Below the pieces are notes generated by a model. The model saw only the letters and a program-made list of their open reading frames with translations. It was not told the origin of the DNA and made no database searches. Positions 6,029 through 64,000 of a stretch of DNA of 64,000 nucleotides are shown here, piece by piece. Source of the stretch: Jaapia argillacea MUCL 33604 (Eukaryota; Basidiomycota; Agaricomycetes; Jaapiales; Jaapiaceae); NCBI GenBank assembly GCA_000697665.1, contig KL197714.1:1102049-1166048 (forward strand), written 5' to 3'. The number at the start of each line of letters is the position of its first letter. The stretch's first letter is position 1. A program made the translations under genes and the position numbers.

Positions 6029-6037
6029 ATCCATCCC
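6029..6037. repeat. Target site duplication, left copy
   Basis: ATCCATCCC directly abutting the left end of the MULE; repeated exactly at the other end. Confidence 0.88.
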
Positions 6038-6144
6038 TAGTCTCGCGTGGCCAGACCGTACACGTGAGCGGAGTTGAAAACTCGGGAGCACCCGAGTTGT
6101 GTACGGTCTGGTGAGTTTTGTCGCGTTTCCCCTGGGTCAGTGAC
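6038..6144 (+). repeat. Left terminal inverted repeat of the MULE
   Basis: 107 bases starting TAGTCTCGCG, identical to the reverse complement of 7278-7384. It contains its own hairpin: CCAGACCGTACAC at 6051-6063 pairs with GTGTACGGTCTGG at 6099-6111, and inside it AACTCGGG pairs with CCCGAGTT. Confidence 0.95.
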
Positions 6145-6258
6145 CGCACATGATTTGTGACCTAGATGTCCTGTGTTGACAGAGCTTTATCCTTTGTTGA
6201 TTTTCTTTGTTCTCGATCCTAAATCGTCTTTTCTGGCCATCCCTATGCTTTTATAGTC

Positions 6259-6456
6259 ATGTCTGCGGTTATGCTGTCACACGAAGAGACGCACAGACGC
6301 TCCTACAACAGCCTCGCGAATGCACGATTGGCGGCCTCTATGACTCCGGGAAAATATGACTCTGCAGCGACCCGCAAGTTGATGTCTGATAGCTGTAAGG
6401 AGTGGATGCGATACGCAATTCATGCCTGGCAATTACACATTGCAGCCTTGTTATAG
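6259..6456 (+). CDS. Small open frame inside the MULE near the left end
   Basis: A 65-codon frame starting MSAVMLSHEETHRRSYNSLA, about 115 bases inside the left inverted repeat and preceded by TTTTATAG. I do not recognise it. A later stretch on the same strand (6467-6733) is open and could be joined by an intron ending near 6482. It may be another captured fragment or chance. Confidence 0.25.
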   Translation: MSAVMLSHEETHRRSYNSLANARLAASMTPGKYDSAATRKLMSDSCKEWMRYAIHAWQLHIAALL

Positions 6457-6704
6457 GGACTGAACTGTGAACTCATACCCAGGACTGTATCTTGCAGGAG
6501 GGGAGGGGGTGATTTTTGGCCCACATATGGGTGTATCGGGGAGGTTTGTTCATTTGCTCTCAGTCCATTCCCTTCACCGTAGACCCTGCAACCCTCCCGC
6601 CTACTGCTCAAAACCGTGGGGCCACCTTTCAGACCTTCGACGGCATCTGTGTGAACGAAACCCTGTTAGGGAGCTCTCTGAGAGGTTGGAACGAGGAGTT
6701 CGTA

Positions 6705-7205
6705 TCATCCGGGTAACGTCCTCGAGTTCGTAGTCAACAACAACCTCCACACAGTTAACTGCGAAATTTTCAAACACCCTTTTCCCCGAAGTGCACGAGA
6801 GTTACGCTGATCTAGATGACGGGGTGGTAGGTGGCAACAGTGGAGAATACCCCGGAGCTCACTGGTCCATAGGAGTACTGTTCTCTTGTACACTACCTTC
6901 GGATTCGAGCCACACGCTTTATTACCCCATAATACAGCATCCAAAAGGAATTGTAAATTTATTCCAACGTCATCGAGGATTTTAAGGACTGTGAGTACCA
7001 TCAGTAGCAACGCCTGGCCTCTCAACTCTTCTCTATGCAAAGATGTACAGCCGTAGCGCACGTCGTCCAGCGGGCCAAGTTCAGTATCCCCTTCAAGGTC
7101 GAATCCAACTGTCGGGTCACTATCCGAGTCGTCAGAGAGGTCATCGCCAGGAGTGTACACTTCATCGGAGTTGAAGAGTTTAGTATCGTCAACGGTTTTT
7201 CCCAT
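6705..7205 (-). CDS. Partial open frame carried inside the MULE, DUF6589-like
   Basis: A 166-codon frame whose ATG lies about 70 bases inside the right inverted repeat. It starts MGKTVDDTKLFNSDEVYTPG, then an acidic stretch, then VLTVLKILDDVGINLQFLLD and WGNKACGSNPKVVYKRT. From memory this resembles the N-terminal part of a repeat-rich Agaricomycete family (DUF6589-type proteins with a conserved WG..AC segment). Only the first part of such a long protein is present, so it is either a captured gene fragment (as in Pack-MULEs) or the remnant of an element gene after internal deletion. The similarity is recalled, not computed. Confidence 0.35.
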   Translation of the reverse strand: MGKTVDDTKLFNSDEVYTPGDDLSDDSDSDPTVGFDLEGDTELGPLDDVRYGCTSLHREELRGQALLLMVLTVLKILDDVGINLQFLLDAVLWGNKACGSNPKVVYKRTVLLWTSELRGILHCCHLPPRHLDQRNSRALRGKGCLKISQLTVWRLLLTTNSRTLPG

Positions 7206-7277
7206 ACAAGACTTTTACGAGGAAATGAGCTGGTAAATGAGGGAAAATGTGCGTCCCGTCACGAAAAGATCACATTT

Positions 7278-7384
7278 GTCACTGACCCAGGGGAAACGCG
7301 ACAAAACTCACCAGACCGTACACAACTCGGGTGCTCCCGAGTTTTCAACTCCGCTCACGTGTACGGTCTGGCCACGCGAGACTA
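7278..7384 (-). repeat. Right terminal inverted repeat of the MULE
   Basis: Exact reverse complement of the left repeat over all 107 positions by direct reading, including the nested hairpin. Confidence 0.95.
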
Positions 7385-7393
7385 ATCCATCCC
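7385..7393. repeat. Target site duplication, right copy
   Basis: ATCCATCCC directly abutting the right end of the MULE. Confidence 0.88.
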
Positions 7394-7447
7394 GACCGTC
7401 GCATATACGGCACTTCTGTCAAAACGACTTTAGGCTAACACATTAGC

Positions 7448-7635
7448 GTTGCCACGAGCCGCCAGGATAAAGCTGTCAAGACCTGTCATGTCAGAATTGT
7501 AAGGGACCTCTGGGACTGCGTAAGCATCAACGAGCACATGGCAGCCGTATCCTAAAGGGGAAATGGTCTTCCTCGTCGTGGCTGACAGTGACAAAGCCAT
7601 TTTCGCCGCCTCACATTACGTAATTCTCCCAAAAA
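7448..7635 (+). repeat. Left arm of a second, diverged inverted repeat
   Basis: This stretch matches the reverse complement of 8039-8227 along most of its length, with scattered substitutions and small gaps. Shared blocks include GTTGCCA, AGCCGCCAGGAT, AAGGGACCTCTGG, GCTGACAG-GACAAAGCCATTT and TTACGTAAT. I judge it about three-quarters identical by eye. Confidence 0.7.
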
Positions 7636-8038
7636 GGCAAGGACTGCGCCAGCAATATCCAGAGCCTTCGCGCTTGTCGTTGCCGACAATGTTGACGGAC
7701 ATCCGCTTGTCCTGGACTGAAAAAAATGAGTTCCTCTTTTTTTCGTCCGAGTCGTCTATGACATTAATCTTTGCTTGATGTTTTGTATCTAATTGAAAAC
7801 TACTGAGACAAAAAAAATAATGCTTATCAAGGCCCCATAAATACACATGTATTGAGTGTAAGTATCTTCTCCACAGTAAGAAGTTGTTGTGAACGATCTG
7901 AATTATTTTCTGAATTTCGCGAGGTTTTGCGATTTAAAACATGGGTGGTGACTACAGTGTCTCGTCACTGTCCATGACAGCGAGCGCGCCGGCGGCGGGA
8001 GGCTGATCAATTAAACCTAGACTCGACGAAAAACTGAC

Positions 8039-8227
8039 ATTTTGGGCAGTATTACGTAAGAAACGTCGGCAGAAATGGCTTTGTCGCTGTCAGCCGCAAC
8101 GAGGAAGGCCATTTTCTCTTTAGAATATGTCTACCATGTGCAGGTTGGAGCTCACGGGGTTCCAGAGGTCCCTTATGATTCTGAGATGACAGCTTCATCC
8201 AGCCTCATCCTGGCGGCTTATGGCAAC
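8039..8227 (-). repeat. Right arm of the second, diverged inverted repeat
   Basis: Reverse-complement partner of 7448-7635. With a spacer of about 400 bases the whole is a 780-bp palindromic unit, compatible with an old MITE or foldback element that lost its target duplication to drift. No coding potential recognised in the spacer. Confidence 0.7.
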
Positions 8228-8631
8228 CGTATAACACATGGAAAGCATATATCTCGTAATGGTGAACCAAGGATGTCAAAATCTGGCAGCCCCGATCTCT
8301 GTCAAGCTGGCCAAGCCAGTGCGAGTCTCGCATGAGAACTTACTGACCGGCTTTGGACGAGAAACACCGTGCCTACCTCACGGCCACGGACGCCGTTGAC
8401 ACTATTCTTCGTCTTCAGCCTGATTTGCGTGGGATCTCGTAACAATCATTGTAGGGCTGTTGGCGAAGGTGTGCCATCCTGGGTGGGATGAGGTGTACGG
8501 GACCCGAAACAGGCAAGGAATCGTATCGGTCGAACAACTTCCTTTGTTTAAAAGCCAGCTCCCCTCCGAAGGATGGATATGTCCTTCTCCTGTCCTTGTG
8601 GCCGTCACTGTCGCTTGTTAGCTCTGTTTTC
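8228..8631. other. Upstream region of DUF6533 gene 1
   Basis: No gene recognised. It should contain the promoter of the gene starting at 8632; no obvious TATA box was found. Confidence 0.45.
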
Positions 8632-20451: not shown

Positions 20452-21830
20452 TTACAAATGGGGTATAACCGTAGTCCACTGGAGAGTCCGGTACATAGTT
20501 GGAGACAGGGATCGAAGAGATGAAAACGCTAGCCCTATCAACATCAATCGAACTGCAATGTACACAAGGACAACCATCCGTGCGCCGAACTCCGACATTC
20601 TCTCGAAACCGAACCTCAGAGGTACAAACATTACAAGGACTCCAACCGGCCCTGCGGATATGGTTATGATGGAGCAAACCACCCAAGCCGTTTCCTCCCA
20701 GTGGGATGGAAATGAGACCCGCATCCCAACTAAATGAACAGCCCCGAACATGGTGGACCCTATGCACGCAGCGGCGATAACATGTCCCACCTCCTTCTCC
20801 TCGATATTTCCTGAATAAAACGAGCCTACTCGCTTCCTCAGGGTCTTCGTGTTATTCCCCAACCCCGCCATATCATAGAATGGCGGAGTCAGTAGGTCGA
20901 GGAGGAAACAGACGGGGAGAGTCAAGACTCTCAAGGGGTAAGGCTGACCCTCAACCGCCTCTGTCGCCGACGAGCCGGCGCGTTGGACATAACGGCGGAA
21001 TGCGGCGGCACAATGCCTCAGCACATTCATCACGTTTGACTTGTGTTCGGTTTTCATCCCCCTTTCGCTCCCTTCCCGTTGGTCGACATCCTCTTCACCC
21101 GCACTCCCACTACCGTTGCCTCCAGGAGCATCGTCGGCGGATCGCATCCGGACTGGATATGAAAATCCCACGTCCGCAGGCTTATTCCACCAACATCCAT
21201 AAATACCCAAATTAAGGATAGTGAACGCTAATGTCATTCGTTCGAGTGCCGTTATCGGGAGTCCGTCAAAGCTGCGAGCGAGCGCCTGGAAAACGAACCA
21301 GAATGATTGCAACATGATGAGAGCTTTCGAGACGAGGTCGCGTTTGCTCCTGTCCAGAATTTGGTCCTTCGATATGCGGGGAAATTCGTTTGGAGCGAGG
21401 TATGCCAGCTTCTCCGGCAGAAGTAGCTCGGAAGGTTCGTCGTCATGACCTCTCACTAGCGTAAATCCGCCCATGAGCGCAAAAAAGCCATGAGTTTGCG
21501 ACCATCCATGCTCTGTGAATTTGGAGTGAAATTTGGTGAGTCACGTTATAGAAGGATAAGTGGAATCAGAAACATGCCTCGATGATCCTTCGCAATCCGG
21601 CGAGCAACAAAAAACTGCCTCAAAGCCAACACCAGGACTATCTCTGGTGCAATTACGGCCATCAATGTGAGCCCCGTTCGGCGTAAAGTAACCTCGATTA
21701 TGCTTTCATCTGGACTGGGTATGTTTGGGTGAACGGCAACCCATGTACAGGTGAAGATAGTCGTTAGACAGCTGAAGACGATGCTCGACGCGGTCCTGCA
21801 GTAGCGAATATCAAGGCAAGTAGACATCAA
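20452..21830 (-). CDS. Uncharacterised Agaricomycete multi-pass membrane protein, copy 1
   Basis: Two exons, 21830-21578 and 21512-20452, give 437 residues with no stop. The first exon begins MMSTCLDIRYCRTASSIVFS and contains TIFTCTWVAVHPNIPSPDES, a signature I associate with a large Agaricomycete family of unknown function. The second holds THGFFALMGGFTLV, a polar loop with ILDRSKRDLVSKA, and several hydrophobic helices at the C-terminal end, finishing TVIPHL. The single intron has a GC donor (GCATGT at 21577) and an AG acceptor; no GT alternative keeps the frame, and the sister gene at 40704 has the same GC-AG intron at the same place. Probably six to eight membrane segments. No function is known to me. 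Confidence 0.8.
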
Positions 21831-39289: not shown

Positions 39290-40704
39290 TTACAAGTGGG
39301 GGATAAAGGTCGTCCAAGAAACAGTAACATATATACTAGTAGTACTTGTTGGTGGAATTCGAAGGGTGAAGAAGGTCAGCACGAGCAATATCAGACGGCC
39401 AACAATGTATATGAAGACAAAAAAATGCTTGCAGAAGTCCGCAGCCCTACTATTCCTGAGTCCAAGTTGTTCGAATGCGGCCAGAGTAAACGATCCAACA
39501 GTAGGCGAGATCCCGATGATAACTGCGCATGCTCGCTACAATAGCCTCTGCGCGGTCGATGGGAATAAAGTCGAGTACCCTGCACCGAGGTGGATACCGC
39601 CGAAGGTGCCAATCGCAACCGCCGAAGAGTATAAAATCACATTCGCCTCCGTGTTGTCGAGGCTTCCGGAGTAGAATGCACCCACACCCCTCTGGGCCCC
39701 ATGGCCCTCCGTGTCATCGACCAACCCAGCCATCATGTAGAAAGGGGGAGTGACCCAAGCGACAAGAGTGCAGATAGGAAGTGTCAAGACTCTTAGCGGG
39801 AGAGGGTGACCTCCCACCCACTCCAAGGCGGTTGACACGGCCCCGTCCATAGAAAAACGTGATTTAGCAGAGATCGCGGCGGCAGAAAATTTCAACCCAT
39901 GCCTTCTCTCGGGCATGTGGGCCTCTCTGTCGTTCCTCTCGCTACCGCTACCTTCCCCATCATCCTCGACAATACCTTCACCGCCTCCTTCAACGAGCGG
40001 GCGAAATTCTGCGGATCGTTTACGGACTGGATATGAGAAATGCACGTCAGTAGGTTTGCTCCACCAAAATCCATAAGTGGCGAAGTTGATGACTGTAAAA
40101 GCCAGTGTCGCGTATTCGAGCTGTGTGGTCTGAAGTCCTTTGTGTGAACGAGCGGCAAACTGGAGGATGAACCAGGCGGTCTGCAAGATGGCCAAAGCCT
40201 TGGATAGAGTGTCCCGTTTACTCCTGTCGAGGATCATCTCTGCCGTGAGCATTGGAAATTCATCCTCGTCGAGATCAAGGAGTCGATCAGGCAGAAGAAT
40301 TTCCACAGGTTCGTCGTGGCAGCCTTTGACTATCATGAATCCGCCCATGAGAGCAAAAAAGCCATGAGTCAAAGTCCATTCACGTCCTGTGGGTTCAGAT
40401 TGTGGTCTCAGACATGTATCCAATGGAGTGCGAAATGGAAAAGTGACTTGCCTCGGTGAACCTTCGCTATCCGACGTGCACCAAACCACTGTCTCATGGC
40501 CCATACAAGTACGAGTTCCGGGGCAATCAATGCCATCACCATTAATATCACCCGGCGCACGATGACTTCAATTGGGCTCTCCTCCGGACTGGGGATGTTG
40601 GGATGAATAGCCACCCACGTGCAAGTAAATATTGTTGTCAGACAACTGGAGATGATGCCCCACATTGTCCTGCAGTGGTGAATATCGTTACACTGGGATG
40701 CCAT
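39290..40704 (-). CDS. Uncharacterised Agaricomycete membrane protein, copy 2, with an internal stop
   Basis: Paralogue of the gene at 20452-21830. Exon 1 is 40704-40452 (MASQCNDIHHCRTMWGIISS, TWVAIHPNIPSPEES). Exon 2 starts at 40386 (THGFFALMGGFMIV, ILDRSKRDTLSKALAILQTA). Both copies share the GC-AG intron, here with donor GCAAGT at 40451. At 39538-39536 an in-frame TAG stands where copy 1 has the Trp of ETAWVVC. The frame then stays open for 81 more codons that still match copy 1 (helix FVFIYIVGRLILLVLTFFTL, end FIPHL) to a TAA at 39290. So the gene is either a recently broken allele (367 residues, last helices lost), a case of stop read-through, or a base-call error. It has no known function. 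Confidence 0.72.
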
Positions 40705-46577: not shown

Positions 46578-49012
46578 ATGTCCGCAGTGGCAGGCCCCTC
46601 CAGGTTGTCTGCCTCTTCCTCTGCTCGTCCTAGAGGAACGGGGGCAGATACTGAAGAGGCTCGGTTGATGAATCTCGTCGCTCGGTTGAGCATTCAAGAC
46701 GTCGACGACCTTACATCAAGACAGACTCTTCGTCGCTCTTCGTCAGATGCAGAGATTGCGCTGAGGCTTTTCGCTGAAGAGGCTAGGTCTGTTGCTAGGA
46801 TCAATAACGATCGCGCTATCGCGCAGAGTCTCCAGGATGCAGAACTTGGGGCTACGCCACCTCGAGCTCGCTTATCGACTATCCAGGAGCAGCCGCGTCA
46901 ACCTGTGGCAACTCCGCCTCGCCCAGCACCTGCCACCCAGGCGAGACCAAATCCCACTCGGTGAGTTGTTTCTCAGCCATTGGAACAATACCATTGACAG
47001 TTTTGAGTCAGGAACGCGCCCACACCACCACAAACGACGGCAGGTGGCGGGTTCTTCTCTTGGTTGTTTGGCGGGTTCGCATCAACAAGCTCGTCATCGT
47101 CAGAGCCTTCGCGCCCAGCGCCCCTTCGGTAAGCCTCTCATGTCGCAACCTGCCCGTAGCTGATCCCACCTCTTCAGGCGTACAGGCAACAATTGTGTTA
47201 TCTGTCAAGACCCGATCGTTGGAGTTGAAGTACGCTCTCCTTGTGGACATTTCTACGATAAATCATGTGTGCTCGATCTCTTCGAAGCCGCTACCAAAGA
47301 CGAGACACTCTTCCCTCCTCGCTGTTGCCGGCAGGAGATCTCCCTCGCTCAAGTTCGTCCTCACATGACCGCCACTCTCAGCGCAGTCTTCGACGAAAAG
47401 GCAAAGGAGTTCGGAACGTTGAAGAGAGTTTATTGCGCCAATCCAAAGTGCAGTCGCTTTCTCGGAGAGGCCAACGAGTCGTCATGGTTTGGCTACAAAA
47501 TTTACGGGTGCCCTGACTGCAGCACCAAAACATGTAGTCGGTGCAAAACTAAAACCGACCCCTCAGTTATGCATTCATGCAAAGTCGACGACGGGAACCA
47601 AGAGGTTCTTTCACTAGGTCAACAACAAGGATGGGCTCGATGTCCAGGATGCCATGCGATGGTCGAACTCAACTTGGGCTGCTTCCACATGACATGTCGT
47701 TGCAAAACACAGTTTTGCTACATGTGCAAAGCATTGTGGAAGAACTGTCCTTGCCCACAATGGGAAGAGAGGAGGCTGATAGCGGCGGCTGAGGAGAGGG
47801 TGGATAGAGAAATCCAAGCTGCTGGTGTGAATAGAGCGAGAGGGCCGGCCGAAGCGGCGGCTCGCCCACCGGCACCTCGCCGAGCAGCTGCGCCTCCACC
47901 ACCGCCTGCAGTCTTCCCTGTAGGTCATCGGGGAGCTCCAGCCCGGCGTGCACCAGTAGCGATTCCAGAGCACCGTCCTACTTTACCTCAGGCAGTGCCG
48001 GCTCGTGAGGCTGTGGCTGCACGCACTGTCCAACCCTACGGTAGCACACCAGCCGCGGCACCTCGCCCATCAGCTACGCCTCTGACTCCTACGCCTTATG
48101 TTCTCCCTCCCCTTCGGCGCGTGCCATCGCAAACGCCAGTGGACTATGGCACTGCTCCAGCCCGCCGACTTTCCGGTGCTGCCGAAGCCACTGTTGATCA
48201 ACCGGCAACTCCTCGAGATCATAACGCGTCAGCTGGACTTCCATTACGAGAATGGCTCGACCAAACATCGTCTCCTTCCAATTCGACCGCAAATTCCCAA
48301 GGAGCGCGCTCCACGCCCGTTGCTTATCCCCAATCTATACCAAATCGGCCCCTCACGTCGGACAACCATTCTTCGGGAACGTCATCTCGATGGCGGTCGA
48401 TCGCGAGCCAAGCAAATTCCCCAACTTCCCTTTCGCAGCCCTCGCACTCCGTAGTTAGCCCTCCTAGGAGTTCGAGTGATGCGTCTCCTTCGCCAATCTC
48501 AGCTCGTCGCTCATCTCAACCCCAAGCCACTACAACCCTTAGCTCTCAAACCTCGCCTCTTAGAGCTGTCAACTCGACCTCATCTTCCTCGTCTCCGGAG
48601 TCTCAACTTGTAGCAAGTTGGTTGCGCTCGCAATCCACCTCAAGTTCCAGTTCTCAAGCTTCTCGCACCAGACCAAGCTCCATGTGGGATGATTTGCCTA
48701 CGGCCCCCTCTTCCCCTCAGTCCCGTTCAACCTCACAATTCTTGTCACCTACTGCAGAGCGGACAAGAAGAGTCAGGGAAATGATGGAGCGTCTTCGCCA
48801 TGATCACGACTGCACCCATGAAAGATGGTACTACCGTTCCGGAGGTGGACCATGCCAGAGTTGCCATCATCACTTACGATTGTACCTTTTCGTGAGTGCT
48901 ATGCATCTCCAGATTTTTCCCATAACTGACCCTACGACTTTGGTTTGTTTAATAGCGATGCTCGAAATGTCAGATGCTGGCCTGTAATCGGTGTAGGCGA
49001 AACCGACTTTGA
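46578..49012 (+). CDS. RBR E3 ubiquitin ligase, gene 2, with long disordered insert and C-terminal zinc motif
   Basis: Exons 46578-46960, 47012-47128, 47178-48891 and 48956-49012 join in frame to 756 residues. The N-terminus (MSAVAGPSRLSASSSARPRG) and the helical block LFAEEARSVARINNDRAIAQ match RBR gene 1. RING1 begins CVICQDPIVGVEVRSPCGHF, with TLFPPRCC; IBR has KRVYCANPKCSRFLG and CSTKTCSRCKTK; RING2 is WARCPGCHAMVELNLGCFHM with the catalytic-type Cys in LGCFHMTC. After RING2 come roughly 400 residues rich in Pro, Ala, Ser and Arg, probably disordered. The last part, beginning REMMERLRHDHDCTHERWYY, carries paired Cys (CQSCHHHLRL, then CSKCQMLACNRCRR) and looks like an extra zinc-binding module; RBR gene 3 has the same one, split by an intron at the same place. 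Confidence 0.9.
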
Positions 49013-49454
49013 GTCCGTTCGAATGCAATTCACATTATGAAGATTGTTGCAGACAGTATTCTGTATTATGTCCACCTTGACCTTGTACAATACATTCACT
49101 TCTTAACAGTTAGACTGAGCGCTTCAAGTTGTGAAATATTTATGTTTTCGCCAAGCCTTCGCCTCTGGTAATTCCTGATCACAGAAGTGGCAAACCTGTC
49201 AAGGCCATGCGTAATTTCGGCTGCAGTCTTGCTTCCAATGCCCTTCCTCTGACTGTAACACGGACAAATGATGTCTCCTTCCACCACCTCGAGTCATCGA
49301 TTCATTGAAGGACCAGCCCCAAGCTTGACTCAAGGGGCAGTGATATTTGCGCAGTCGCCAGGGATACAGCCTCCACAATAAGGACTCAGGGCAAGCGCTG
49401 CTATAAAGTTCTGTCGCTGTCGACACGTACCATCACTGTTCCTTTCCGTGACCG
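49013..49454. other. Intergenic, promoter of RBR gene 3
   Basis: 3' flank of RBR gene 2 and promoter of gene 3. CTATAAAG at 49401-49408 lies about 50 bases before the ATG at 49455. Confidence 0.5.
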
Positions 49455-51088
49455 ATGACGACTGATGCTGGTCCTTCAACGTTGCGTCGAGTTCGTTCCA
49501 CACCCCAAGTTCGCGCAGAGGCTTCGTCGGGGTGTTATCCGCATGACGCGGGTCTCACAGGGGTCGAAGAACTTGGGCGCAGGAGGTGTGCCTCCTTGAT
49601 TGCACGGCCATGTGAGCTCGGGATAACGCCCGATGAGAATGAGGCAGACCCGTTGGATGCCATCTCGTCAGTATTCTTGTTCCCCGAGTGTGTCATTTTT
49701 GAGACTGACCGTCATTCAAGCCTCCCACCGAGTGATGTTGCACCTCCCCATCGGAAACCTCGTCGTTTTCTGAGTGCCGTCTCGGGGTTCGTGCGTCGGA
49801 TGAACCCTAAGCACTTGAGGAGGTCGTCGGCATTATATGACCCACCTCATCTTCGGTATGGACCCCCCAGTTCTGCTCCTTCATACCCCTATTCTAGACT
49901 CAACCATTCGTAGCCCCACTGGCAATACATGCGTTGCTTGCCAGGATCTCATCATCGGACTTGACATCCGCGCACCGTGTGGTCACTTTTACGACAAGAC
50001 ATGTGCCGTTACCCTCTTTCGCAGCGCACTCAAAGATGAAACTCTCTTCCCGCCTCGCTGCTGTGGTCGAAAGGTCCCCTTTGCCAAAGTGCGACCTCAT
50101 ATGACCTCCGATGACGTGTCATATTTTCATATCAGAAGGCGCGAAGTCCAAACACTAAAGCGGGTTTATTGCGCCGACCCAGTTTGCAGTCGGTTCCTTG
50201 CGGCGGCATATACAGGTACCTGGAGGTTCCGAACCAAAGTCCACACCTGCCCAAACCCCAGCTGCGACACTCGGACATGTGGTCGATGCAAAACTGCAGT
50301 CTCACGAAAAAACAAACACGTCTGCGCGCTCGACAAAGATCACCACGAGGTCATTGCTCTTGGACAGCACGAGCGATGGGCTCGTTGTCCAGGATGCCAA
50401 AACATGATCGAATTGCAGGACGGATGCCATCACATGACATGCAGATGCCAAACCCAGTTCTGCTACCTTTGTTCAGCAAAGTGGAAGACTTGTACTTGTT
50501 CCCAGTGGCCGAACGAGACGGAGATTATGGGCGAGATGGTGGGAGCGGAGGACGTTCTCTTGGATGCTGAGCAACAAGCAAATCTTGCTCGACTAGCTGA
50601 TTTGGCAGGAGTTGGTCCTCCTCCCGATGACACTCCGACAATACAAGCCCCTCCTCCCGAAAGCCCACCCCCTAGTTACTATCACCCGTGCTGCGTATCT
50701 TCGCCTTCATCTCCGACGAACTCTAGCTATTATCCCGCTCCGTTGGATCCTTCATCGTCCTCCCCTTCTACTCCATCACCCGAGGAGCCTAGCTTCCTCG
50801 TCCCTTCAGACAGACTAATTACCTATCGCGCTTTGACCCCCGAAGAGAAACGTGAAGAGGCCATCAACCGCCTTCGCAATGATTTCTCGTGCTCTCACGA
50901 TACCATGAAATACCGCTCAACTGATGGAGACTGCTATGTTTGCGGGATATATTGCAGAGTGTATACTTTTGTAAGCTCATTCCTTCCCATCAGTTTCTCC
51001 GCCTATACTCATCGTGTCTGACTTTTAATAGCAATGCTACAGCTGTGAGGTGGTGCTATGCGCCGAGTGTCGATGGCTTCGGATGTAA
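49455..51088 (+). CDS. RBR E3 ubiquitin ligase, gene 3
   Basis: Exons 49455-49855, 49914-50970 and 51032-51088 join to 504 residues. The N-terminal 134 residues (MTTDAGPSTLRRVRSTPQVR) are unlike genes 1 and 2, with basic Ser-rich parts. RING1 is CVACQDLIIGLDIRAPCGHF with TLFPPRCC; IBR has KRVYCADPVCSRFLA and CDTRTCGRCKTA; RING2 is WARCPGCQNMIELQDGCHHM with the catalytic-type Cys in DGCHHMTC. A Pro/Ser-rich linker follows. The C-terminal zinc-like module has EEAINRLRNDFSCSHDTMKY, CYVCGIYCRVY and, in a separate 57-base last exon, CYSCEVVLCAECRW. The last exon has the same length and phase as in RBR gene 2. Head-to-tail with genes 2 and 4. Confidence 0.88.
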
Positions 51089-51409
51089 TTTGGGAGCCAA
51101 GTTGAATTACTAGTTTGTGTGTATCCACTCAACTGAATGAAGGAACGACATGTACGATCTTTTGGACACACAAATGTTGATGTTCGCGCCTCCGATTGAC
51201 CTAACACGCCAAGTCTCGTAGCTATTCACCTCAAGTTCTTGAACAGCATCGTTTAGGCTGAGCGCTCGGCACGATTTTTGGATCATCATCCTCCTTACCT
51301 AGCCTCACAGCCTCGGGCACAGCTGCCGCGGTTAGAGATGGTCCTATAAAACTGGTCCTGGAATCCATCTGGCCATAGACCTCCACGCCTACTGAGTCTC
51401 GCTCTCGCC
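51089..51409. other. Intergenic, promoter of RBR gene 4
   Basis: CTATAAAA at 51344-51351 lies about 60 bases before the ATG at 51410. No other feature recognised. Confidence 0.5.
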
Positions 51410-52677
51410 ATGTCCACTACTGGTCCCAGTAATGCTCAGAATGAGTTGCCCATTGGAGTCACCAACACTAGGTATTCATTCATCAGAGGTATCAACCTAT
51501 CTGCGGTGCGCAGACTCCGTAAAACCAAGAGCACGTCGATGATTCAGGCCGTGGATGTGCCACAACAACCAGAGGATTCGCAATCGCTCGATGAGATCAA
51601 CCAGTCGTAAGTGCACTCACACCGATTCCGGAACCAACCTAATTATTCAATATACTTTCTGTATGCTTAGGCACAGTATCGACCACAGTCCCTCACTCAC
51701 TCCGAAAACTGGGAAGTTCTCGAAAGTGATCAGTCGCTTCACTTCCAGTCGTCGACGAGCAAGCTTGTACGAAGCGCCGGCTCCAAAGGAACTCCTGTAC
51801 GTTATGCAATCTTTTGATCAGCCATGTCTGATCCATAAATCAAGCCCCACTGGGAACACTTGCGTCGTTTGTCAAGATCCTATCATGGGTGTCGAAGTTC
51901 GAGGGGCCTGTGGACACTTTCTCGACAAGGCATGCGCACTCCTCTTGTTCGAGCTCGCCTTGAAGGACGAGACGCTCTTCCCGCCAAGTTGTTGCCAGCG
52001 AAGAATTTCCTTCACCAAAGTTCGACCGCACATGACGACAGAACTAGTTGAACTCTTCCGAGAGAAGAAGCGGGAGTTCAGGACCTTGAAGCGAGTCTAT
52101 TGTGCAAAACCGTCCTGCAGCCGATTTCTCGCTCCAGTACCCACAGGCGTCATGAAGTTCCGAAGCAAGATATATTCTTGCTCGTGCGGCACTCGGACAT
52201 GCAGTCAATGCAAAGCCATCGTTGAGCCAGGTGTGAAACATGGATGCGAAACCAACGATGGGAATAGCGAAGTGCTCTCGTTAAGCGAAAAGCAGAATTG
52301 GGCTCGTTGTCCTGGATGTCAAAACATGGTGGAACTACGGTCGGGGTGCTATCATATGACCTGCCGATGCAAGACGGAGTTCTGTTACCTATGTCAAGCG
52401 CGATGGAAGCGGTGTGGTTGCCCTCAAATGGGCCGGGCGACTCGTTGGGAAGATGAAGTGGTTGCCCAGCCTGTTAGGGCTGTGGTCCGCCAGGCACAAG
52501 GTGAGATCGCTAATCTCCCAGAAACTTCAGTACTCTCTAAACCTGGTTCTAGTCTCTAATCGCCTTACAGTAGACCACCCACCGAACCCTTCTCAAGGCT
52601 CAATAGCTCTCGGGGCGAATCTTTTCATAGCTTTCTTAGTAATTCTCCTCTTAGCTACGACAGTGCTTGATTTTTGA
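51410..52677 (+). CDS. RBR E3 ubiquitin ligase, gene 4, probably tail-anchored
   Basis: Exons 51410-51606, 51671-52500 and 52571-52677 join to 377 residues. Start MSTTGPSNAQNELPIGVTNT. RING1 is CVVCQDPIMGVEVRGACGHF with TLFPPSCC; IBR has KRVYCAKPSCSRFLA and CGTRTCSQCKAI; RING2 is WARCPGCQNMVELRSGCYHM with the catalytic-type Cys in SGCYHMTC. Unlike genes 2 and 3, it has no Cys-rich C-terminal module. Removing a GT-AG intron at 52501-52570 (donor GTGAGA, acceptor TTACAG) joins QAQ in phase to VDHPPNPSQGS and a hydrophobic stretch (ALGANLFIAFLVILLLATTV) ending LDF, a typical tail anchor. If the intron is kept, the protein stops at 52559 with no membrane segment. Confidence 0.85.
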
Positions 52678-57511: not shown

Positions 57512-59000
57512 ATGTCACTCACTCCACCATTCTCCCCATCAGAAAAGGTTGCCCTAGCAGCACCGCTTTTGGTCCTCTGTACGCTCTTTCCAACGCGAAG
57601 TCAGCCTTCTGGATCTGCCAGCTGAACTCATCGTTATAGTTGGGAAAATTCTCTTTACCGCCATTATCGCACCCTTCCGAGGACAATCAGGTGCACCCAC
57701 CTACTACAAGCATGTTTATTATGCCGTGTTGCGTGGTTCGAGTGAGGGTCCCTCCGTCAGGCAACTTCAGTGTGTATACCTCCTTCCGTGCTCCACATAC
57801 ACTACCAAAACAGAACTGATTCACGACGGGTGCACACGCAGATACATTCGTCCCCCCACAGACGAAGCCTACGCTACATGGTGCCAATTGAACGAAATTA
57901 AACCCAGGACGGAAGTACTGGTGGACGGTACGAAAGCACATTGGTTAGGAGACAAATATGCAGATAACGTGTTGGTTTACTTCCACGGCAAGTCCCTGCA
58001 CTCCCATCTCGTGATAACACAACGGCTGATAGGTTAATTTGTAGGTGGTGGATTCGTGCTGCCCGCAACCGAAGCTTACTTCCAGTTCTTGTGGGAAACG
58101 ATTCAGAAGGTAAAATGGGAAGGCAGAGAGGTTGCCGTCTTGCTCTTATCTTACGGCAAGTACTCGTCTGTTCAACACCTTGGAAAATTTGGCACTTACT
58201 CGAGGCAACTCACTTCAGATCTCGCTCCCGGCGCGCAGTATCCCCGACAACTACAACAAGCTGTGACCCTTTTACACCACTTGATTCACAACCTCCATAA
58301 AGATCCCTCAAATGTTCGTTTAACTCACCTTCCATTCCGAAAGATGACGTTATAATGAACCCACTCGTTCTCTCATGCAGATCATCTTAGCGGGTGACTC
58401 CGCCGGAGGAAACCTAACACTTGCCATTCTTTCCCATATCATCCATCCTCACCCTAGCTCTTCGATACCTGAGCTCAGGCTCTCGAAGCCATTACGGGGA
58501 GCGATCTTGATCTCTCCATGGTTAGCTCTCCATCCTCTTGGAGGGTAAATTAACTCAAGATGTCATCATTTTCCAGGGTGTCATTCTCCACCACAGCCCA
58601 CTCGTTCACGCGAAACTACTACCGAGATGGCTTCCCCCCAGCCGCCGTGACATCATGGTCATCTCAATTCCTCGGCTCCTCACCCACAGACCCTTACAAC
58701 GAACCAAGTTCCGCGCTTCCAGGCTGGTGGCAGCCTCTCGCTCAGAAAGAGGTAATAAACGAAGTTTTAATCGTCTCTGGCGAACAAGAAATGCTCGTCG
58801 ATGATATCCGTGACTTCACAACGCGTTTCAAAAAAGATCTGGGTGGGGGAACGGGGCCAGTAGTAGTTCAAGATTTCGTGGTGGAGGGTGAGGCACACGC
58901 TCAACCTATCACTGAGTTGGAGATGGGTTATAAGGAACCGGGAAAGGAGAGTATGATTGTGAGAGAGTGGATTTGTTCGAGGTTGGAACCACTTTGGTAA
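57512..59000 (+). CDS. Alpha/beta hydrolase (HSL/fold-3 esterase type), copy 1, with disrupted 5' end and GC-AG introns
   Basis: Serine esterase or lipase of the hormone-sensitive-lipase-like family. The oxyanion motif is split as YFHG and GGFVLP; the nucleophile elbow is LAGDSAGGNLTLAIL; the acid residue lies near VLIVSGEQEMLVDDIRDF; the His is in GEAHAQP. It ends REWICSRLEPLW at 59000. Two introns use GC donors: 57988-58044 and 58156-58218, both GCAAGT..AG; copy 2 has GT donors at the same positions. The presumed start MSLTPPFSPSEKVALAAPLL at 57512 is in a different frame from DLPAELIVIVGKILFTAIIA and the rest. Two single-base shifts near 57565 and 57605 would explain this, with no room for introns. 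So the 5' part is either damaged or mis-sequenced; the catalytic part is intact. Confidence 0.78.
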
Positions 59001-59704
59001 ACGCGAGTCTCCCGATCCGTATCTTGACACCTCAGGTTTCAAGAGGTGGCGGATCCTCCACTTTCCCTCGGCTTCCGTGAAAATCTTCAGAAAGTGAGAA
59101 GCTCAAGGGCTTGAGACGATGCTGTCGGTAGACGCGGCGCGGATGGCTTCCTGGAACTTGGTCTCAAGGCCTACGATCTTCCCCGAACAAGAGTCTCAGG
59201 CGTGAGGAATACCAATCGCGAGTCGAGCACTCAATTGTCAGCTGGGGCGAGCCTAAATTCGAAGGAATGCAAAGCATCAGTCAGCAAGGTCAAAGAAGTC
59301 TCCAGAGGTATTCCATCAAGGTGGATGATTATACAACCAAGTAAGCAAAAAGTAAAGCATCCCACTATACATACGCGACAGCAAAGATAAGGCGTAACCT
59401 ATATAAAAAAAGGTCGAAATCGCGCAAGCAGAGTAGTAAAGTGAGAGGTCGTGTCGTGTCGCTCGTGAATTGGGCGTGAGGGGCACATGAGGCGATAAGT
59501 CCATCGTGTAAAGGGAGGAGTCAAGTATGGAGGTCTAGTGTCGGCGTGAATAAAGGCGATAGCGAGATAGCGAGTGGGTGGTTGAAGGAGGGTACGCAAA
59601 GGTTACGCATGGACGTGGTGCATTATGCTACGAAAATTGTATGTCAGGACGCTGCAGGTCAAATGACAGTAACAACAACTTACAAGGGGCCGGAAGAAGT
59701 CACA
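59001..59704. other. Convergent 3' regions
   Basis: Between hydrolase copy 1 and the UBL3-type gene. No coding sequence recognised. Confidence 0.45.
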
Positions 59705-60570
59705 TTAACAAATAATGCACCCACAACATCCTGTCGCTTCTCCTTCCTCCATCGTATCTCCACTCTCCGACCTTCTCCTCCGTTTGCCCTTCTTCTTAAA
59801 ATCATCCTCCGATGGATGCGCATGGGGTCTAATAGACAAATGTACGATAGTAGAAGGTGTCGCAGGGACCGTTGGTGACGAGGTTGTAGCGGGAAAATTT
59901 AATTCTGAGTTCGAAGTAGGGTGTGAGCGATTGGGAAGTCGAGAGGAGAGATTACGGCGAGCGAGGACTTACTCGTTAGGGTATCATCATCCTGGAGGAT
60001 CTTGCCAAGGTAAAGGATTCGTAGGTATGAAGGCGCTGGTGGACGTTCATCCTGCCACTCAGCTTCTTCAGACGTGGAGATGCCATCAGCAGACATTTCA
60101 TAGGAAAGGAAAAGTACGCAGGACTGACCACTAGGCCAAGTATTCCAAATCAGCTCTTTCACTCTCCCCACAGTTGTATCAGGTTCGAAAGACATCGTCC
60201 TTCGCCGACCTGTCACCAGGAGGAACGTCACGGACGTTCTCGGCGTCTGTGGGACCTCCGGTTCGGTCGCAGGTGCAGGTTCCGGCTCATAATCAGCATC
60301 AAAGCCCTCGTGTGTCCCAATATCGGCGTCGAACACTGATGTGACACCAGCCTCGTTGACTCTAGTAAATGATGTCCGAGCTGATGCCGGGGCTGTACCA
60401 ATAGCTCCATCTAAATATCTCCGGTTTTCAAAGATGGATGGCACTGCGGAACGAGGTTGTGTCGAAGCAGTAGCAGGTGGTTGTAATGAGGTAGGCTCGG
60501 GGTCAGACTGGGGGTCACGCTCTGTGGAGCCTGATGATGCCACGATTGATACTGGGTCGCTCATGCTCAT
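59705..60570 (-). CDS. UBL3-type prenylated ubiquitin-fold protein
   Basis: Membrane-anchored ubiquitin-fold protein; plant MUBs and animal UBL3 recruit E2 enzymes to membranes or sort proteins into vesicles. Start MSMSDPVSIVASSGSTERDP at 60570; the first 130 residues are disordered. The beta-grasp fold runs SVTFLLVTGRRRTMSFEPDT, TVGRVKELIWNTWPS, EWQDERPPAPSYLRILYLGK, LQDDDTL and, after another intron, STIVHLSIRP. A Lys/Arg-rich stretch (FKKKGKRRRR) precedes the C-terminal CCGCIIC, a CAAX-like ending with neighbouring Cys for palmitoylation. The end at 59705 is a TAA right after the final Cys. One intron in the fold reads through in frame if not spliced, giving an alternative with about 24 extra residues. 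Confidence 0.85.
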
Positions 60571-62747
60571 GGTAGGCAAGCAGGTGGAAGATTGGGTTTG
60601 TGACGAGGAGAGTACCGGGTTATAGGGCAAGTGAGAAACTCGTGTGAGATGGTGGAAGCTCGGGAGTTCGAAGTCACGAGACGAGCGGAGTGAGGTACTA
60701 TAAATGCAAGTCCAGAGTTTCCAGTGAGTTGGAAGAACGATGGCAAAAGCAGCGCAATAGCAGTGGCACAAATATATGGGTATGGAAGGCAGAAATCACG
60801 CACCAGAAGCTGTCCTGAGACTTATACGTGAATGGTTCCCAAGTGAGGTTGAAAGGTGTTGGCAGGAGGTTGCGGCGAGTTAGGACTTTGATGTCAGAAG
60901 ATTCGTCAATCTCCCTCGCACCTCCTGCACCTTTTAAAATGACCTCTAGTCAACAGTGTGTAAATTCCGTTGACAAGATAGACCCGGTGTGGAGGTGGGC
61001 TTCGAGACCGAGGAGGATGTCGATGAGCTCAACGGAAGGACCTGGGCGAGGACAAACCTGGAAAGCAGCCGTCTGGCTTTACCCACGTGTTGTGGGGATA
61101 TTCCAGGCAGGCGGCATTCTCCGGTCCACTCTTTCGCCCTTCCCGTCGACTTGCACACTAGTATTCCATTGGTATTCGATCATCCTGCATTCACTTTTGC
61201 AATAATGAGGGCAGGCGGTACATCTCGATTGAAAATTTACAGGCCACCCATCCAGCACTATCCTCAATTGGGATGGACTGGATGGACACCTGCATATCTG
61301 CTGGGCTTCTCGGAATCAGCATTGACCCACCCTACACCTTCGATGACCTCGCCTTCGGTGGGGCGAGATGGATTCCGGCTAGCTAAAGAGTTCGAATGGC
61401 TCAGCCCACCGAGGTCCGAAGCCGTCGCGGGGAGGAAAATCTCAATCATATCCAACCTTCTCCACTCCCCGATTTATGCTGTAGCTGTCCATTTCACATG
61501 CATTCTTCGGTCCCGTGGACCGTGATTGGTCTTCATCTTTCTGCCGTCATAGTCGATAAGCCCTCTGCAGATCAGGACGACCTTTCTTTAACCTTTCCCC
61601 AACTCTGAAGCACTCTGGGTTCTGTCGCTGCGTTTGAAAGATAACCTCAGTTGTCGGTCCACTGTCGCTGTTCTGTCTAAATTCGTCGATCGGTCGCTGA
61701 TAGAGTGATTCACTTCCACAATCATGGGAGTTTGAACTACTCGCGTCGATGCTTTTCTCCATGTAACGAGTCGTTAATTCGATCGTCGCCACACCATCAA
61801 TGCATCGGATTCGATCTCTGCATTCAGTTCTCTTCTTGTCCCGCCCTTACTCCTTGGATTTTCCGGCAATGCCTATGATCGACGCAGCTATTCTCCATAA
61901 CAACTTGAAACCACCGATGGGGAGGCTATCATTGCCTCGTCGGGCCCTTTGGGAAGCAAGCGGTGTGAATCCTCTCTAGCCAGTGTCATCACTATAGCCC
62001 CAGACCACCTCCCTCATTCGCATCGAAAGTTGACCTTCGCCTCATACGCGAGTGATCAGCAAAAACGAACGACTTGGATTGTTCGTCAGAGGTTCAGACT
62101 GAGTATGGGAGAGGAAAGGCATCATCACACATGGTGAGAGATGCGCAACTGACGTACCTGCAAGAGACATCAAAGAATCATTGAGAACACTTGGCATTGC
62201 ATGGCGAGGTAAGTGACCAGCTTCGAAGGTCGCGGTAAGCCACGACTCGAGTTCGACCAGTCAAGTACTCAGTTAACTCCGCCCACTTTCCTCCATTTTG
62301 GCGACAACGATCGACATTAATATTGCTCTGTCAGAAGTTTGGTCAGTGCCATCTGCCAATAGCTGCTACGAGGTTCCGTGTCCAAGGTTCGCTAGACGCG
62401 TACGGTCTCTGATTGCTGCGCGGTTGGGAATTCTCAAGTTCACTATTCATGAGTCTACGGCTAAGTTTGCCATCCTCACTGTTGCAGGCTTGCGAGCTCT
62501 CGAGAGGTTTCCATTCTCCATGTCGTGCGATTTGGATCCCTCGTCGGTCAGCTTGTCCTAAGAATCTTCCGCCCCAAAACCGCTGGTCTCCCTCACATCC
62601 ATCCGCCTCATGATGACAATATTCTGATACGAGACCCTCGTGATCCCACGAATCTCAAGCGTAATGCAAGGATCCCGACCCCTGAACTTGATCTCTGAAC
62701 AAAAAGAGGTGGTGACTTATCTTTCAATTGAACAAACGACCAGCTCT
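60571..62747. other. Long region without a clear gene
   Basis: 2.2 kb between the UBL3-type start and the end of hydrolase copy 2. On the minus strand around 61200-60955, two stretches could be exons: one with QWNTSVQVDGKGERVDRRMP, and, after GTGGGT..CCAG, one with VELIDILLGLEAHLHTGSIL ending FTHC. They look protein-like but I could not extend them upstream. A plus-strand frame at 60989-61525 overlaps them. A short minus frame at 61547-61792 (MATIELTTRYMEKSIDASSS) is also unrecognised. Call left open. Confidence 0.35.
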
Positions 62748-64000
62748 TCACAACCTCTCGCAAAGCCATTCTCTAACAACCATACTCTCCTTGCCCGGCT
62801 TTGTATACCCCATCGTCAGCTCAATGATGGGTTGAGCATGTACTTCACCCTCTGCCACAACATCTTCAACCACCACTTCGCCTCCTTCCACATCCAAATC
62901 GTCTTTGAATCTCTTCGTGAACGCCCGAATGTCGTCTACGAACGTTTCCTGTTCACCAGAGACGATCAACACCTCCCGTATCACCTCTTTCTGGGCAAGA
63001 CCCTGCCACCAACCTGGTGGGGCACTATTGGGTTCATTGTACGGGTCTATAGGAGAGGAGCCGAGGAAATGTGAGGACCATGATTTAGCGGCTGCTGTAG
63101 GGAAACAGTCTCGATAGTAATTTCGGGTGAATGAAGCAGCGGAGGTGGAGAAGGATGTCCTATAAAATATAGGAACCCAGTCACTTCTTTTATCGTTCTT
63201 GGATAAAGAGGGTCGAGTAATTACCAGGGAGACATCAAGATTGCTCCTTTCAATGGCTTGGCGAGCCGGAGCTCTGGTATAGATGAACTTGGGTGAGGGT
63301 GAACGAGGTGGGAAAGGACGGCAAGTACGAGATTTCCGCCAGCCGAGTCCCCTGCTAAGACAACCTGTAATTAAAATTGTTTAAGGGATTGTTGTCTTGA
63401 ATGATAGATGAGTGTTTGAGGAGACGAACGTTGGAAGGATCTTTGTGGAGGCTGTTAACGACGTGAGAGAGAACTGCGACAGCTTGTTGCAGTTGTTTGG
63501 GGTACTGGGCACCAGGAGCGACATCTAAAGTACGTTCCGTGAGATCAATTGGGAGTCGACGGTATTCTATGCTGGGGAGAATACTGACCGTACGATAAGA
63601 CCAGGACAGCGACGTCTTTACCTTCCCACTTAACCTTGACGATGGTCTCCCATAAATACTTGAAGTAAATCCCATCTGCTGGGATGACGTAACCTCCACC
63701 TGTGAAGAAATATTTGAGCCATATGATCAAAAATAGAGGTCACCGTGCTTACCATGGAAATACACTAAGACATTTTTTGAATCCTTATCTCCCAGCCAAT
63801 GCGCCTTCGTACCATCCGCCAAAACTTCTGTCCTTGGCTTAATATAATTCGATTTACACCAAGTAGTGTAGGCATAGTCGGTTGAGGGGAGCATGTACCT
63901 ACGCACTCATCATCAGCTCCCGCCTCGTAGCATACGTGAAGTAGGGACGGAGAAATGGATGCCTACTGAATTTGCCTGACGGAGAGAACCTCACCGGAAC
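62748..64000 (-). CDS. Alpha/beta hydrolase (HSL/fold-3 esterase type), copy 2, partial at window edge
   Basis: Paralogue of the hydrolase at 57512-59000, in opposite orientation and running out of the window at its 5' side. The exons seen read PRTEVLADGTKAHWLGDKDS and YFHG, GGYVIPADGIYFKYLWETIV, DVAPGAQYPKQLQQAVAVLS, the elbow LAGDSAGGNLVLAVLSH, and the last exon with VLIVSGEQETFVDDIRAFTK and GEVHAQP, ending REWLCERL at 62748. Ser, Asp and His of the triad are present. Introns here have ordinary GT donors where copy 1 has GC. The N-terminus, and whether it is intact, cannot be seen. Confidence 0.85.

Follow-up and report, generated by a model that had tools for sequence, protein, structure and literature searches.

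The window analysed here, 64,000 nucleotides of the genome of Jaapia argillacea, contains a short element whose long, perfectly matched ends and 9-bp target-site duplication raise the question of which transposons it descends from and how recently it moved. The first-pass annotation had read it as a very young Mutator-type MITE that carries no recognisable transposase, may be active, and should have an autonomous partner in the same genome. The coordinates and sizes given there are correct: two ends of 107 nt that are 100% complementary bound an element of 1,347 bp, with ATCCATCCC on both sides. Chance cannot account for a perfect inverted repeat of 107 nt together with an exact 9-bp repeat on either side of it. 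The ends, the target duplications, the gene remnants between the ends and the gene content of a coding relative can all be read directly from the assembly. In our view the element is very probably non-autonomous and descends by internal deletion from a DNA transposon that encoded a helicase, the best place for it being the Academ superfamily, as AcademH.

Table. Features of the window element, complete copies sharing its ends, and other DUF6589 loci in the assembly.
Feature	Position	Strand	Length	Target-site duplication	Remarks
Left target-site duplication	6029..6037	.	9 bp	ATCCATCCC	
Left terminal inverted repeat	6038..6144	+	107 bp		tip TAGTCTCG; helicase-gene side
Left-end hairpin/palindrome	6051..6111	.			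feet CCA...TCTGG; inverted-repeat scan, fold and stem tests
Helicase gene N-terminus remnant	6421..6486	+	23 aa		70% to C40, E 8e-4
Decayed DUF6589 gene start, three reading frames	6617..7211	-			match to C40 DUF6589-gene piece
Right terminal inverted repeat	7278..7384	-	107 bp		DUF6589-gene side
Right-end hairpin/palindrome	7311..7371	.			letters identical to left one; 1/200 dinucleotide shuffles equally stable
Right target-site duplication	7385..7393	.	9 bp	ATCCATCCC	
Window copy			1,347 bp	ATCCATCCC, 9 bp	
C16 copy			1,314 bp	AGAATTATG, 9 bp	
C15 copy			781 bp	CGTCAAGGG, 9 bp	
C37 copy			771 bp	GTCCAACAT, 9 bp	
C5 copy			673 bp	GTCAACATG, 9 bp	
C40 copy	L016 2135-7874		5,740 bp	CCTAACGACG, 10 bp	
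C14 DUF6589 element	L047 1472-7351			CGCTGTGGT, 9 bp	inverted ends 202 nt
C22 DUF6589 element				GTCTTTCAT, 9 bp	inverted ends 121 nt
C3 DUF6589 element	L051 1642-7759			GGGTGGTGG, 9 bp	inverted ends 264 nt
C13 DUF6589 element				TGCCAACAG, 9 bp	
C10 DUF6589 element				ATATCTCTA, 9 bp	
C87 DUF6589 element				no matching duplication found	inverted ends 173 nt
C12 DUF6589 element	L052 1891-9222			no matching duplication found	inverted ends 180 nt
C29 DUF6589 locus				no duplication found	29-nt inverted pair only

The ends are not single-copy. A genome-wide search of the 43.7-Mb, 95-contig assembly with the 107-bp end returned at least 10 matching places at at least 8 loci. Both ends and exact duplications are present at six of the eight loci read (window, C16, C15, C37, C5 and C40), and the other two, at C6:1286764 and C2:258864, hold a partial end match only. 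The expectation of 9-bp duplications holds in five of the six complete copies, but C40 has 10 bp. Searching with the other end of C40 gave a match at C14:883737-884437, probably one further short copy, and a search for the tip pattern found further end matches at C10:464949 and C11:908798. The broader description, of a non-autonomous DNA transposon with terminal inverted repeats, a 9-bp duplication and related genomic copies, is thus confirmed. The term MITE, which implies short, non-coding elements in high copy number, fits poorly: the end matches found are few, the six complete copies all differ in size (673 to 5,740 bp), and the window copy retains coding remnants.

The longest copy, C40, shows what such elements encode. 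A DUF6589 gene faces a helicase gene on the opposite strand, each running in from one end. DUF6589 (PF20231) was matched in two adjoining pieces (E 3.3e-42 and 3.1e-46), and the helicase gene matches DEAD (PF00270, E 4.7e-9) and Helicase_C (PF00271, E 4.4e-14). No match to the MULE domain (PF10551) was obtained in any of nine ORF pieces of C40 or in the one window piece scanned with them. As for the predicted partner in the same genome, there is a longer coding relative, but it has premature stops and, where a MULE transposase had been anticipated, no MULE domain in the pieces scanned. The C40 copy is probably non-functional, since three stops interrupt the reading frame of its DUF6589 region and one or more of these fall within conserved sequence, with no obvious intron to account for them. 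No intact source element with the window's end type was found among the copies read.

The interior of the window element preserves pieces of the same two genes. The first DUF6589-gene piece of C40 matches window positions 7211-6768 on the minus strand (38% over 151 aa, E 2.5e-25), and two further short pieces lie in other frames, reaching down to 6617. At the DNA level, the left interior is 68% identical to the helicase side of C40 over 265 positions and 76% identical to C16 over 253, and the right interior is 66% identical to C16 over 597. It is this match of the adjoining interior to C40 that identifies the left end as the helicase side. Because the remnants of both gene starts share their order and orientations with C40, the window copy is an internal-deletion derivative with decaying gene starts. 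There is indeed no complete transposase inside, and no Pfam domain in the two ORFs of the element that were scanned, but the interior is not plain filler, since portions of two transposon genes survive there in decayed form. In the history that we propose, a fuller element would have carried two facing genes, for a DUF6589 protein acting as transposase and for a DEAD/Helicase_C helicase, and a derivative would have lost most of both while keeping both ends. The proteins of a fuller relative could then have moved the derivative in trans by cut-and-paste, with a 9-bp staggered cut giving rise to ATCCATCCC on both sides. We infer that DUF6589 is the catalytic Academ transposase and that the helicase takes part in movement.

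The pairing of DUF6589 with this helicase extends beyond the copies that share these ends. A PF20231 profile search of the genome gave 23 matches at 12 loci, all of which were read. The C40 helicase has a match at nine of the 12, C40 counted (weakest C10, E 9e-9, and C22, E 1.4e-9), and none at C35, C6 and C21, loci where element-bounding ends were likewise not found. Six of the 12 (C40, C14, C22, C3, C13 and C10) have inverted ends flanked by an exact duplication of 9 or 10 bp. At C22 the scan also gave 10-bp and 8-bp repeats inside the end's own palindrome, and the outermost, 9-bp repeat was chosen; the duplications at C13 and C10 were located through the tip motif, the automatic scan having missed them by using other end positions. 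PF20231 had no match in 14 control genomes, which says little as the named controls are prokaryotes, and a search of the DUF6589 sequence against solved structures gave two matches at chance level (E 0.73 and 0.83). A second end type also occurs in this genome, with CAGRCTCC tips, 9-bp duplications and no clear terminal hairpin (C14 and C3); C12 has no clear terminal hairpin either.

Assigning a superfamily requires these features to be weighed together. A passage of PMC10045372 gives target duplications of 9 or 10 bp for AcademH and 3 or 4 bp for AcademX, and ties the difference to helicase versus nuclease. In our elements the duplication is 9 bp in the window and 9, 9, 9, 9 and 10 bp in the five other copies, and a helicase is encoded by the coding relative, the window copy keeping only its 23-aa remnant. 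Low copy number in a fungal genome is a further likeness to AcademH, reported in a passage of PMC10799480 as low-copy in Basidiomycota, Ascomycota and Mucoromycota. The window copy differs in having no intact genes, and the AcademH features used for this comparison are those of published descriptions. AcademX, the nuclease-encoding Academ elements, presumably belongs to the same superfamily and differs in its 3- or 4-bp duplications (PMC10045372, same passage). Terminal inverted repeats are an Academ feature, and in addition to the perfect 107-bp pair in the window they are found at C22, C14, C3, C87 and C12. On the other side of the ledger, the ends of C40 differ, its DUF6589 region contains stops, and six of the 12 DUF6589 loci showed no exact 9- or 10-bp duplication, two of which (C87 and C12) do carry long inverted ends.

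MULEs typically have long inverted ends and duplicate 9 bp of their target, and both features are seen here, which speaks for a Mutator-type non-autonomous element mobilised by a MULE transposase; PF10551 is also present in this genome at three places (C14:73627, C4:1191862 and C84:60975). None of the three, however, coincides with any end match found, the sole coding copy read has DUF6589 and a helicase, the window element's own gene remnants match those two genes, and no MULE transposase was seen in any related copy. A duplication of about 9 bp is common to AcademH and does not discriminate. Mutator origin was thus rejected on gene content, and we regard it as extremely unlikely. In our opinion, non-autonomous MULE and Academ elements are easily confused because 9-bp duplications are possible in both; a passage on the Marasmius oreades genome (PMC8290104) mentions putative non-autonomous elements of the two kinds together, classed by end motif and duplication length. 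It is also conceivable that transposons with DUF6589 and a helicase form a lineage separate from Academ. The Academ filing draws on the helicase and the 9- or 10-bp duplications, the word DUF6589 was not found in the literature searched, and homology to Academ is itself inferential. Both of the published features that discriminate AcademH are nevertheless present, as is the low copy number described for these fungal phyla (PMC10799480, same passage), and we judge a separate lineage very unlikely.

The AcademH assignment does not settle the age of the copy. None of the 116 paired sites (107 in the ends and 9 in the duplication) differs, placing divergence below 2.6% (95% upper bound). This is compatible with a recent insertion and is no proof of current activity. 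In the comparison of the window copy with C16, identity is 98.1% and 96.3% at the two ends and 72, 66, 57, 45, 57 and 83% (44.7 to 83.1%) in the six stretches between them. An identity of about 45% is near the level of unrelated sequence in a forced global alignment. The low identity of the interiors, beside ends that are 96-98% identical, means that the interiors are old although the ends are alike. With copies resembling one another so much more closely at their ends than inside, the identity of the ends cannot serve as a good clock. For this reason, and because C40 has premature stops, the description of the element as very young and possibly active is weakly founded.

There is about an even chance that the perfect ends reflect exchange between ends, by gene conversion or end swapping, or selection on the ends, instead of very recent insertion, a reading that concerns age only and is compatible with AcademH. 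The disparity between ends and interior relative to C16 favors it, as does the distribution of end types: the window copy and C16 carry the DUF6589-side type at both ends, but the helicase-side end in C40, C37, C5 and C15 starts TAGTCTCGCAAGCCA and forms a different hairpin. In keeping with this, the ends of C40 and the window are 84% identical on the matching side, and the other side has a different hairpin. Exchange between ends at some point, in either direction, is the simplest reading of this distribution. An intact 9-bp duplication would also be expected of a young copy, but the older-looking C16, with ends 94% complementary, has one as well. A search of this assembly for a paralogous empty site gave none: the left flank has no match other than itself, and for the right flank no match besides the window covers query bases 1-58, the matches belonging to a neighbouring repeat.

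That neighbour is a second inverted-repeat element, apparently unrelated, that begins 50 bp past the first element's right duplication (window 7444-8231, 788 bp). It has ends of about 188 nt that are 78% complementary and an 8-bp duplication, TAACACAT, and relatives at C9 (97%), C8 (two), C1 and C10 (73-83%). Given the 97% copy at C9, recent movement is at least as plausible for this neighbour as for the first element. Elsewhere in the window, three similar ORFs in a row at 47164-52559 share a 122-nt repeat (47632, 50377 and 52299, 73-74% alike); the first matches IBR above the Pfam cut-off and the second IBR_1 below it, and the row is likely a local gene expansion. A 418-nt inverted repeat pair at 58568-63168, 74% complementary and 3.8 kb apart, may represent either inverted gene copies or an old element. 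At 20452-21540 (no Pfam match) and 39536-40567, 19 kb apart on one strand, lie two similar ORFs that share a 116-nt repeat (72%).

The ends themselves carry a further feature. A subterminal palindrome with CCA...CTGG feet is present in all 20 ends of the ten elements with TAGTCTCG-like tips (window, C16, C15, C37, C40, C5, C22, C13, C87 and C10), the CCA foot beginning at base 11-14 and the [T/A]CTGG foot 44-111 nt later. Feet were located with pairing ignored, as the earliest CCA beyond base 8 and the earliest [T/A]CTGG at a distance of more than 25 nt from it, and were unchanged when TCTGG alone was used (18 ends). In the 12-nt arms beside the feet, 7-11 positions are paired, with a shift of up to 2 permitted equally for true and swapped arms. 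In a set of ten chosen ends, the true arms have a mean of 9.9 paired positions out of 12, against 5.7 for swapped arms, and none of 100,000 permutations reaches the observed sum. The close kinship of some of these stems prompted a repeat with eight, namely seven whose 5' arms are at most 7/12 identical plus C10_T, which is not in that identity matrix; here true arms average 10.0 and swapped arms 5.8, and of the 40,320 permutations none but the true order attains the sum. C10 entered the hairpin set after the pattern had been noticed. The stem is variable but covaries, the hairpin's shape being conserved between relatives and its letters not.

Stability taken by itself is weak evidence for this hairpin, and the case rests on the arm-pairing test. 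In the window's left end, a 13-bp perfect outer stem (CCAGACCGTACAC / GTGTACGGTCTGG) encloses an inner stem, and none of 200 dinucleotide shuffles is equally stable. Of the 15 ends of this group that were folded, 13 are matched in stability by 0-5 of 200 dinucleotide shuffles, the exceptions being C37_H (49) and C5_H (82). By the easier standard of mononucleotide shuffles the counts out of 200 are 2 for C10_H, 11 for C13_H, 11 for C10_T, 13 for C13_T and 31 for C87_H, so that the last four are marginal even so.

The hairpin is not common to all DUF6589 elements, a possibility rejected because C14, C3 and C12 have no clear one. Dinucleotide shuffles are as stable in 83 and 107 of 200 cases for the C14 ends and in 56 and 44 for the C3 ends; the C12 ends are slightly better than shuffles (9/200 dinucleotide at one end, 22/200 mononucleotide at the other). 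In a tree of eight DUF6589 sequences, C14, C3 and C12 stand apart with support 1.00, and the hairpin-bearing C40, C87, C13 and C22 fall on the other side with C35, whose ends were not found. When all 12 are placed in one tree, support is poor along the deep branches, including that of C10. A purely gene-regulatory hairpin is disfavoured: because the gene-less short copies (C37, C5 and C15) keep paired arms at both ends, a role in movement is favoured over one in gene expression. Some bacterial elements have ends that fold as single strands. By analogy, the ends might be recognised partly by shape: the element's own helicase would open the end, and a subterminal hairpin whose CCA/CTGG feet are fixed but whose stem can vary would be extruded and bound. 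The letters of the stem could in that case serve as a family-specific tag, free to drift while pairing is kept. We consider this idea unlikely as it stands. A palindromic site bound by a protein dimer, changing with each family's transposase, remains an alternative, as does homogenisation of the arms by template switching. No description of Academ end hairpins was found in the literature searched; Kojima 2020, reportedly the founding AcademH paper, lies outside that search, and the feature may be known.

Overall, the window element is most likely a decayed member of a known low-copy fungal transposon lineage. Target-duplication length alone does not settle the superfamily, and in fungi the coding relative has to be examined before a 9-bp duplication is taken as a sign of Mutator. 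The tie between Pfam's uncharacterised DUF6589 and helicase-bearing transposons with 9- or 10-bp duplications gives that domain a testable function. The end anatomy is worth following up, and if the covarying end hairpin is general, the reason for this lineage's helicase would become testable.
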